This document shows, in pieces, positions 19,234 through 33,658 of a stretch of 64,000 bases of DNA. Position 1 is the first letter of the stretch; each line of letters begins with the position of its first letter. The DNA is from Neelides folsomi. Taxonomy: Eukaryota; Arthropoda; Collembola; Neelipleona; Neelidae. Location of the stretch: NCBI GenBank assembly GCA_034687125.1, contig JAQGBZ010000056.1, forward strand, positions 124,001 through 188,000. The letters run 5' to 3'. The notes beneath the pieces are model-generated. The model made no database searches, was not told where the DNA came from, and saw only the letters and a list, made by a program, of their open reading frames with translations. The position numbers and the translations under genes were made by a program.

Positions 19234-22200
19234 CTAATCCATATCAGCTTCAGCTTCATCTTCAAAATCTGCTTCTTCGTCGGCAGTGGCTTCTTGGTAT
19301 TGTTGATACTCAGAGACCAAGTCATTCATGTTGGATTCGGCCTCAGTGAATTCCATCTCATCCATACCCTCACCGGTGTACCAATGAAGGAAAGCCTTTC
19401 TTCGGAACATGGCAGTAAATTGCTCAGAAATTCTCTTGAACAATTCTTGGATCGCAGTGCTGTTTCCGATGAAGGTCGCCGACATTTTAAGTCCACGGGG
19501 CGGGATGTCACAAACGGCGGTCTTAACGTTGTTCGGGATCCATTCAACAAAGTAGGAAGAGTTCTTGTTCTGAATGTTCAACATTTGTTCATCAACCTCC
19601 TTCATTGACATCCTTCCTCGGAAAACGGCAGCAACGGTCAAATAACGTCCGTGTCTTGGGTCACATGCGGCCATCATGTTCTTCGCATCAAACATTTGTT
19701 GGGTCAATTCTGGAACGGTCAAGGCTCGGTATTGCTGGCTTCCTCTTGAAGTAAGAGGGGCAAATCCTGGCATGAAGAAGTGGAGCCGGGGGAATGGAAC
19801 CATGTTGACGGCCAATTTCCTCAAATCGGCATTCAACTGACCGGGGAATCGAAGGCAAGTTGTGACACCGGACATGGTAAGAGACACAAGATGGTTCAAA
19901 TCTCCATAAGTCGGATTGGTCAATTTGAGCGTACGGAAGCAAATGTCATAAAGGGCCTCGTTGTCAATACAGTAAGTTTCGTCAGTATTTTCCACGAGTT
20001 GATGGACGGAGAGAGTCGCATTGTAAGGTTCAACGACAGTGTCGGAGACCTTTGGTGACGGCATGACCGAATAAGTGTTCATAATCCTGTCCGGATATTC
20101 TTCACGGATCTTTGAAATGAGCAAAGTTCCCATTCCGGATCCAGTTCCACCACCGAGGGAATGAGTAAGTTGGAATCCTTGAAGGCAATCGCATCCTTCA
20201 GCTTCCTTCCTTACGACATCAAGCACAGTGTCGACGAGTTCAGCTCCTTCGGTGTAATGTCCCTTGGCCCAATTGTTCCCAGCACCGCTTTGTCCAAAGA
20301 CGAAGTTGTCGGGACGGAAGAGTTTGCCGTAAACTCCCGATCGGACGGAATCCATTGTTCCGGGCTCAAGATCGAGAAGAATTGCACGTGGAACATATTT
20401 TCCCTCTAAGAAAAAAAAAGAAAACATTAGATTTCTCTTTGATACACATCTCCTTCTATAGAGTTGGGAAGATTAAACAATTCATTTTCATCCCTCCTAC
20501 ACTTCATTTTACAGACCTTGCAGTCATTTTTTATAGATTCATCCTCAGAAGACTAATTGTATGTTGTGGGTAGGGTGTTGTAATTAAATTCAAATGCCCT
20601 CCGCCCAACTCAATCACATCTTCAATAATCATCCCCTCCCCTTTATGTTAGGTATGTCGGCTTCCTCAAACTCCCACTCTTACAAATTCTACAATGCCCA
20701 CTTCATATACTTCAATACCCACCTGTACCAATACCCACTGTTTGGTATTACAAATATGTATGGAAAGGAATATGGAGATATTTCGAGTATCTGTACATGC
20801 AAGGAGAAGAATTGGAGCGATGAGCAAAGAAGGGGTTGAAGACAAATGGCTCGATGACCCAAACTCCTTTTAATAAACAGAGTTCAAGGAAGGAAGTTAT
20901 TCATTTTCTAATTATCTTCCCTCGAAACTCCTACAAGATGGCCAAGATGACTAAGATGAATACATGTATTGATATAGCGGCTTGCACTTTCATAAACCAC
21001 CTACACCTGAAGATGAAAAATAAATAACATGGGAAGTGATATGGTCCATTATTTAAGAAAGACCTTTAAGATTCCTTCAATGGATCTCTGGAGATCTCTA
21101 CTATATAAATATAGGTAAGGTGCATAAGTCAGGTACAATTTAAGAACTCTATTAAAAATCGGCACTATTATTATTCCAATTTGAATTGAATGAAGCCTTG
21201 TTCCTTAGATGGCTCCTCTTAATTTTCTCATTCACACCACACACACCTCACTCTTAAACTCTTACTTAAATGAAGTCATTAATGGAGATGGGAGGGACAA
21301 AATGATTTAGAGATTTATGCATTGTATCGTAACTCATTACTGTCAGTAGTACATATGTCATTACTGATGGGTCAAAGTGATTTGTCATGAACTAATAAAT
21401 GCTCATTAATCCTAAGCGAAGGCACTTCATCAACTTATGCTTATGGGGGCCTTTTTTCTCATTTGGTCATGTTGCTTACGTGTTACGTGGATGTATAAAT
21501 AAACTAATATTGATTTCCCTTGGTTCGATTATTAGATTCCATTCCGACTTTTTGACCATTGTGTTCAAAGTTAATGAAAGTATATTTTGCTTATCTAATA
21601 TACATACAAAATATGTCTACTATCCAAATATTATTGTATAGCCAAACTTCTTACACTCGGTTCTTGTCAATTCACAATTTAGACAATTCGTGTAATTTGC
21701 ATTCTTCCTTGTGCCATGCCATGCGTAATGAAGTAATGATTTACTTAATACTCGCATTTGTCTCAAAATTGTGCCCTATTTTGTTCTTATCTACACTAGT
21801 CAACGAAAAATCAAAATACTGGTGTTGGTATTTATCAATCAATGTAGGAAATATTTATTTAAATGTGCATGTGGTGAAGTAACACAAGATATGCATTTAT
21901 TGTAAGAATTTCAAAGGTTGAAACCTTCAAGTTTTCAAGAACTTAAAACTAAACTGCATGACATGTTTAAGGAATTATTTATTAGATACATACTTTATAT
22001 AGTATATCATATGGGCTCTTTAAAATATACAAATACAAGTATACCTTTAAAATATTTATAAAATATACATTTATGCCGTACTTGTATTATGTAATTAATT
22101 TTATATCATATGTATGTATAGTATATCCTTATAGAATAGACTTATAAACTCAAATAATAAAATGAAGTATAAAAGAATGAATTATGTTTTGTGTTGCATT

Positions 22201-32078: not shown

Positions 32079-33658
32079 TTAAGCTTCATCGACATCGGCT
32101 TCAGCTTCCTCGTCGAATTCGCCTTCTTCATCGGCAGTGGCTTCTTGGTATTGTTGATACTCAGAGACCAAGTCATTCATGTTGGATTCGGCCTCAGTGA
32201 ATTCCATCTCATCCATACCCTCACCGGTGTACCAATGAAGGAAAGCCTTTCTTCGGAACATGGCAGTAAATTGCTCAGAAATTCTCTTGAACAATTCTTG
32301 GATCGCAGTGCTGTTTCCGATGAAGGTCGCCGACATTTTAAGTCCACGGGGCGGGATGTCACAAACGGCGGTCTTAACGTTGTTCGGGATCCATTCAACA
32401 AAGTAGGAAGAGTTCTTGTTCTGAATGTTCAACATTTGTTCATCAACCTCCTTCATTGACATCCTTCCTCGGAAAACGGCAGCAACGGTCAAATAACGTC
32501 CGTGTCTTGGGTCACATGCGGCCATCATGTTCTTCGCATCAAACATTTGTTGGGTCAATTCTGGAACGGTCAAGGCTCGGTATTGCTGGCTTCCTCTTGA
32601 AGTAAGAGGGGCAAATCCTGGCATGAAGAAGTGGAGCCGGGGGAATGGAACCATGTTGACGGCCAATTTCCTCAAATCGGCATTCAACTGACCGGGGAAT
32701 CGAAGGCAAGTGGTGACACCGGACATGGTAAGAGACACAAGATGGTTCAAATCTCCATAAGTCGGTGTTGTCAACTTGAGAGTACGGAAACAAATGTCGT
32801 AAAGAGCCTCATTATCAATACAGTAGGTCTCATCAGTATTCTCAACGAGTTGGTGAACGGAGAGGGTGGCGTTGTATGGCTCTACGACAGTGTCGGATAC
32901 TTTCGGTGAGGGGACAACAGAGTAAGTGTTCATGATCCGATCGGGATATTCTTCGCGGATCTTTGAGATGAGAAGGGTTCCCATTCCGGAGCCGGTTCCT
33001 CCTCCGAGTGAGTGAGTCAGTTGAAATCCCTGGAGACAGTCGCATGACTCGGCCTCTTTCCTCACAACGTCCAAAACGGAATCGACGAGTTCGGCTCCCT
33101 CGGTGTAATGTCCCTTAGCCCAGTTGTTCCCAGCTCCGCTTTGCCCAAAAACGAAGTTGTCCGGTCGGAAGATTTGTCCGAATGGTCCGGACCGAACCGA
33201 GTCCATTGTTCCTGGCTCAAGATCGACGAGCACAGCCCGGGGCACGTATTTTCCTCCGGAGGCTTCATTGTAGTAAACGTTGATCCTCTCAAGTTGGAGA
33301 TCCGAATCTCCGTGGTAGGCTCCAGTGGGGTCAATTCCATGCTCATCGGAGATGATTTCCCAGAACTGTTAAAAAACAAAAAAGGTTCTTGTACTCACAA
33401 TACTCACTCAGCTCGCTCATAAAACTCCGAGATTCACACCCAGAAGAAGTAAATGGATTATTTATAGATCGGCCTCCATTGTGCCCGTCGTGGTCGGGTG
33501 AGGCACGGCATGGCACTTCCGCCCCATTCCCATTTTATCCATTTCCATCCCCAATATTACCTAATTCTACTTAAAGTTAATTGATATTAAAATCGACCTA
33601 CCTTGGCTCCGATCTGGTTTCCGCACTGCCCGGCTTGGATGTGGACAATCTCACGCAT
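32079..33658 (-). CDS. Beta-tubulin, two exons (canonical isotype)
   Basis: This is the upstream member of a head-to-tail beta-tubulin pair. Exons are 33658-33602 ([19 protein letters not shown]) and 33365-32079, separated by one 236-bp GT-AG intron after codon 19; the product is 447 residues. The sequence is a standard arthropod beta-tubulin: [64 protein letters not shown] and an acidic tail ending EADVDEA. The intron that splits codon 56 in the neighbour is absent here. Codons are richer in G/C than the surroundings, as often seen in highly expressed genes. A compact promoter with CCAAT, AP-1-like and GC-rich motifs lies just upstream. The 3' half is almost identical to the neighbouring gene. 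Confidence 0.98.
32132..32765 (-). repeat. Near-identical tract shared with the neighbouring beta-tubulin (copy 2)
   Basis: This is the partner of 19281-19914, the same 634 bp with a single difference seen by eye. The boundary at 32765/32766 is abrupt: the next 60 bases differ at about ten positions, mostly third codon positions. Confidence 0.9.

Follow-up and report, generated by a model that had tools for sequence, protein, structure and literature searches.

Sullivan and others reportedly described, in 1985, two chicken beta-tubulin genes in which a coding segment seems to have undergone gene conversion. According to the accessible parts of the published accounts, TUBG1/TUBG2 and DDX19A/B are, like the genes described here, direct tandem paralogues (~45 kb and 13 kb apart) in which one part, there some exons, has been homogenised by conversion and the rest has diverged; these pairs were studied by sliding windows and GENECONV (PMC2720389). 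The beta-tubulin paralogues of Leishmania likewise have homogenised coding sequences and diverged flanks, for which ectopic conversion was proposed (PMC1533823). Beta-tubulin introns common to paralogues within insect species have been read as the outcome of gene conversion or double recombination (PMC2880298), and the alpha-tubulin copies of bdelloid rotifers are also thought to have been homogenised by gene conversion (PMC3464624). In worms and flies, fog-2/ftr-1, col-12/col-13, Amy and Hsp70 are linked copies that, as here, combine coding identity with diverged flanks (PMC3966223, PMC3924832); the fog-2/ftr-1 tract reaches into a 77% identical region (PMC3966223).

The locus analysed here is an old tandem pair of beta-tubulin paralogues, genes A and B, and the last exon of A has very probably undergone a recent ectopic gene conversion, most likely templated by B. 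The pair is located in the window C56:124001-188000 of the Neelides folsomi assembly (75.1 Mb, 840 contigs); the window is the whole stretch of 64,000 bp that was analysed, and all positions below refer to it. The COX1 frame of the assembly is open in translation table 5, the invertebrate mitochondrial code, and just as much in tables 4, 9, 13, 14 and 21; it is closed in tables 1, 2 and 11, among them the vertebrate code. Both genes are intact and are arranged head-to-tail on the minus strand of one contig. A preliminary description of the sequence had proposed tandem beta-tubulin genes about 13 kb apart, which agrees with the same orientation of the two copies and their offset of 12851 (12.9 kb).

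Gene A (19234-30297, minus strand) has three exons and an intact frame of 445 amino acids. Exon 1 (30241-30297, minus strand; codons 1-19) starts with ATG, ends at the donor GTAACT and is 77% identical to exon 1 of B over 60 bp. It is followed, after codon 19, by intron 1 (27419-30240, minus strand; 2822 bp; GTAACT/TTACAG), whose position is common to A, B and a third beta-tubulin gene, C. Exon 2 (27310-27418, minus strand) is 82% identical to B over 114 bp and is bounded by AG/GT splice sites, while intron 2 (20406-27309, minus strand; 6904 bp; GTACAT/CTTAG) interrupts codon 56 in phase 1 and is found in A only, being absent from B and C. Exon 3 (19234-20405, minus strand) is an open frame that begins with the second base of codon 56 and ends with the TAG stop codon, is preceded by the acceptor TTTTTCTTAG and carries the putatively converted block. 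The length of gene A, ~11 kb, is due to its two large introns. Gene B (32079-33658, minus strand) has two exons, a single intron of 236 bp and an intact frame of 447 amino acids. Its exon 1 (33602-33658, minus strand; codons 1-19) starts with ATG and ends at the donor GTAGGT, and its exon 2 (32079-33365, minus strand) is open from codon 20 to the TAA stop codon, is preceded by the acceptor TTTTTAACAG and carries the other copy of the block, the probable donor. The splice sites of A and B are GT/AG throughout. Gene C, located on another contig (C76, about 18.2-20.0 kb), consists of four exons. Two of its introns, one after codon 174 and one in codon 319, are missing from A and B, and the three genes align without insertion before the tail.

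Gene B differs from its best solved relative, the 'Tubulin beta-1 chain' 6tis_B, which we take to be the Drosophila chain, at 2 of 430 residues before the tail and, based on this comparison, appears to be close to the beta-1 (major) tubulin class. Gene A was considered as an insect beta-3 tubulin and this assignment was rejected, there being no internal insertion in the A-B-C alignment. The available part of PMC2880298 describes an insertion of 5-6 codons in an internal variable region of insect beta-3 tubulins. The 6.9-kb intron in codon 56 of A lies in or near the region of that insertion, the exact place of which is not given in the part of the source available (PMC2880298).

Elsewhere in the window, a Pfam scan covered 10 of the 22 listed open frames. 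Consecutive open stretches at 56149-61830 (plus strand) match RhoGEF, PH_19 and WD40_2 and are probably one gene, presumably ARHGEF10-like. A weak match to the INTS2-binding domain of Integrator subunit 1 was found at 12429-13172 (plus strand), with 23.5 bits against a curated cut-off of 27.2. Two long open frames, at 4652-6199 (plus strand, 515 amino acids) and 41606-42748 (plus strand, 380 amino acids), are without Pfam match, and a short inverted repeat of about 80 bp with 82% identity is present at 6414-6727.

The near-identical block comprises 635 bp (CDS 658-1292, codons 220-430) at 19280-19914 (minus strand) in A, the probable recipient, and at 32131-32765 (minus strand) in B. The only difference between the two copies is at position 19861 (CDS 711, codon 237) and is silent, A having ACA where B and C have ACC. 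The segment had been described as 634 bp (19281-19914 against 32132-32765) differing at one base; the count of 1/634 is correct, and the identity runs one base further, to 19280/32131. It had also been assigned to residues 218-430, of which the C-terminal limit holds and the start does not, as the block consists of codons 220-430 and two bases of codon 431.

Outside the block the two genes are strongly diverged. When bins of 100 bases were compared with the offset fixed at 12851, the six that lie wholly within the block had 0, 0, 0, 0, 0 and 1 differences, while the five upstream coding bins had 15-24 each (the first of these includes 15 block bases) and the bins that are entirely or almost entirely non-coding had 65-81, in keeping with the earlier statement that the flanking coding sequence and the untranslated regions are diverged. 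The coding flank in exon 3 of A (19915-20405, minus strand; codons 56-219) together with exons 1 and 2 forms an A-specific N-terminal part; over codons 1-219 the identity of A and B is 78.8% and the longest common run is 17 bp. At the other end, the C-terminal tail of A (19234-19279, minus strand) is unlike that of B in both amino acids and length, so that the N-terminal and tail segments do differ between the genes, as had been proposed. Beyond the stop codons, the 3′ flanks of the two genes are likewise different.

A model with two breakpoints, scanned over starts 601-760 and ends 1200-1337, gave a lnL of -373.2 as against -473.6 without breakpoints, which is 100 lnL units better than a uniform rate. 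The block edges are at CDS 658-666 and 1284-1292 (2 lnL units), and each is therefore fixed to within 9 bases. Both edges are in register, with no indel at either and with homologous diverged coding sequence on each side, and no similarity gradient was seen at the edges in sliding windows of silent divergence.

For A against B, silent differences per site (pS, Nei-Gojobori) amount to 0.743 for codons 1-218, which is saturated, and 0.007 in the block, where one change in 134 sites gives a 95% range of 0.0002-0.042. Sliding windows show the same pattern, with silent divergence saturated before the block and near zero inside it, not low along the whole gene. Among codons for the same amino acid with more than one possible codon, A and B use different ones at 104 of 194 positions upstream of the block, at 1 of 195 within it and at 3 of 10 in the tail. 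The few tail codons differ from the block (3/10 vs 1/195, Fisher p = 0.0003); the comparison with the codons before the block, considered for an older conversion reaching the tail, gave p = 0.20 in this small sample (3/10 vs 104/194). When the region 18001-30600 was compared with 30601-36000 (blastn, E below 0.05), the three exons of A were the sole parts to match B. The duplication must be old, since silent sites are saturated before the block and only the exons can be aligned between the gene regions, whereas the block is young, with one silent difference next to saturated silent divergence upstream.

The longest run of silent identity between A and B is 178 codons (399 comparable, 108 different); this length was reached in 0 of 100000 shuffles, the shuffle maximum being 58. 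A three-gene shuffle test built on the GENECONV principle, with C as reference and 20000 shuffles, was also carried out. A run of 84 consecutive silent polymorphic codons is common to A and B, a value reached in none of the 20000 shuffles (maximum 20), while the pairs A-C and B-C are ordinary (the observed value being reached in 7431 and 9791 of the 20000 shuffles, respectively). The tract between A and B is therefore beyond chance in the type of check that had been proposed. Third-position GC, from outside the block to inside, changes from 0.469 to 0.513 in A, from 0.561 to 0.518 in B and from 0.427 to 0.474 in the unconverted C; a rise in the block is thus not consistent across genes. Such a rise has been taken elsewhere as a sign of conversion, in the accessible part of PMC2720389.

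When the whole assembly was searched for the block at the DNA level, at least four matches were obtained: the two genes A and B themselves and, with 83-84% identity, two pieces of C. With the protein of B as query there were at least ten, which include an exon of A, three pieces of C and, in addition, relatives whose identity is 34-48%. In viral contigs six stretches fit the pattern searched for, and none of the six is a relative of gene A. The actin paralogues of the same genome were used as a control (30 loci of 41 matches, several overlapping, on ten contigs, with pairs compared between contigs only); six contig pairs align at 78-90%, none higher and with no near-identical block, and this control is weak because no actin pair compared is tandem. 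The HSP70 family, with 37 matches listed in the assembly, is a candidate for a second control.

The recent ectopic conversion put forward in the preliminary description is supported by the contrast in silent divergence, by edges that are in register and by the excess over chance. Beta-tubulin is a strongly constrained protein, which would be an argument that selection, acting at silent sites through an RNA element, through splicing signals or through codon usage, kept the block alike without conversion. The same block is, however, saturated at silent sites when compared with C (pS 0.70 for A and 0.69 for B). As ~70% of its silent sites differ from C, these sites are unconstrained, and protein constraint cannot explain the block, as the earlier description had argued. 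The confinement of both edges to 9 bases also speaks against such selection, which we reject as having a negligible probability. A young partial duplication or exon shuffling, in which the 3′ coding part of B was inserted to give a chimeric A, would fit with the block being located within one exon in both genes. This too is rejected, as an extremely unlikely origin: diverged coding sequence is present in register on both sides of the block in A, which has its own tail, stop codon and 3′ flank, and neither edge has an indel. The in-register edges and the homologous diverged coding sequence on either side instead indicate conversion.

An assembly artefact, with the block written into the other gene or diverged copies merged, might be suspected in an assembly of 840 contigs, given that the block exceeds short-read length. 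A short-read assembler could merge copies and mask a few real differences, and the single difference in the block is accordingly a lower bound. Copies as diverged as these would nevertheless not be expected to merge, the runs common to A and B before the block being at most 17 bp, while the block, 83% identical to C, has no run over 23 bp in common with it. The window is without N and one base does differ inside the block; an orphan unconverted A-type 3′ half would be expected elsewhere in the assembly, and none was found among the matches listed. As the genes are direct repeats, a wrong join would be expected to delete or duplicate 12.9 kb and not to paste a block in register. We consider an artefact very improbable. 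Hardly more probable is a conversion templated by the reverse-transcribed messenger of B in place of the B gene. The same footprint would be expected from it, and the block is intronless in A and B, where C has its intron in codon 319; as no intron boundary is crossed, nothing in the block requires a cDNA, and the linked genomic donor is simpler.

The conversion probably ran from B to A, judging from protein comparisons. Relative to 6tis_B, A has 20 differences in the 219 residues before the block and 1 in the 211 inside, and B has 1 in each of these parts. The differences before and inside the block are 11 and 5 for C, 19 and 10 for the beta-3 chain 22ak_B, and 6 and 3, 6 and 4, and 8 and 4 for three other solved chains. 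The skew of A is greater than that of the five pooled chains (C, 22ak_B and the three others; 50 and 26; Fisher p = 0.006), and six single comparisons with the same reference gave p values from 0.016 to 0.17. The chains are not independent, and the choice of reference affects the outcome: compared with 11yj_A1, A has 21 + 3 and the pooled chains have 38 + 16 (p = 0.15); compared with C, the counts are 22 + 6 and 52 + 24 (p = 0.34); and the chain 8v4l_B compared with 11yj_A1 (6 + 0) has a skew equal to that of A. The direction from B to A is favoured because the block is nearly pure beta-1, like the flank of B, without the many N-terminal changes of A; it is held as probable and not more because the test is not significant with the two other references. 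The opposite direction, from A to B, would be in line with those two results and with the codon usage of the block, which is 2.9 lnL units nearer to the N-terminal part of A than to that of B, a weak signal; third-position GC favours neither direction. A conversion from A to B is unlikely, however, given that the block matches the flank of B in its distance from 6tis_B and is unlike that of A.

The most likely course of a conversion from B to A is that the last exon of A was broken or gapped, and we infer break repair as the trigger. Repair would have been templated by the linked B, which has the same orientation at a distance of 12.9 kb. A stretch of ~635 bp from B (codons 220-430) would then have taken the place of the corresponding A sequence, the flanks not being exchanged. 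Gene A would thereby have retained its original N-terminal part, residues 1-219, as well as its original acidic tail, while the central region and the greater part of the C-terminal domain would come from the beta-1-like B. In the accessible part of a review, conversion is placed mainly above 80% identity and rarely below, with efficient conversion segments near 200 bp, most estimates of tract length at 200-300 bp and an average minimum of ~500 bp in one yeast study (PMC3924818). In the linked worm paralogues the tract extends into sequence that is 77% identical (PMC3966223). A single conversion event at the divergence seen here would thus be unusual but possible, and the alternative to it is that earlier rounds of conversion kept the segment alike, for which the edges, being without a similarity gradient, give no support. 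In its extended form this would be a standing conversion domain, in which B repeatedly overwrites the core of A (residues 220-430) and selection removes conversions that reach the N-terminal part or the tail of A. Conversion would then keep the segment alike for the next round, the rest being too diverged to recombine easily, and the edges would mark the parts of A with isotype-specific function. We regard such a domain as doubtful, and less probable in view of the published tract that reaches into the 77% identical region (PMC3966223, as far as the source is available).

Trees of beta-tubulin isotypes that are built from whole genes can be misleading, because the history common to codons 220-430 of A and B is not that of codons 1-219. 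Should conversion recur within fixed edges, a comparison of species would reveal which tubulin segments define the isotype. No report of this block, or of a conversion tract in an arthropod beta-tubulin, was found in the titles and openings of abstracts listed, a body of text mostly outside the subscription literature.

The process itself is already known from other pairs, and mosaic conversion of tandem tubulins is in print for TUBG1/TUBG2, as described in the accessible part of PMC2720389. The described systems differ from the present one, as far as the available parts of the sources go. The Leishmania beta-tubulins are protist isoforms at separate loci for which no sharp tract within the gene is described (PMC1533823), and the insect tubulin case was inferred from intron positions and not from a sequence tract (PMC2880298). 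In the bdelloid rotifers whole similar copies are under 4.5% divergent, without a sharp block between saturated paralogues (PMC3464624). The worm and fly pairs show either a lower divergence (fog-2/ftr-1, KS 28%) or similarity along the whole coding sequence (PMC3966223, PMC3924832). TUBG1/TUBG2 and DDX19A/B are a mammalian gamma-tubulin and a helicase traced in many species, whereas A and B are beta-tubulins of one genome with one block and saturated silent sites adjoining it (PMC2720389). Compared with these systems, the locus provides a clean case of conversion in a very old tandem pair, with saturated silent divergence beside the edge and 1 difference in 635 bases within.
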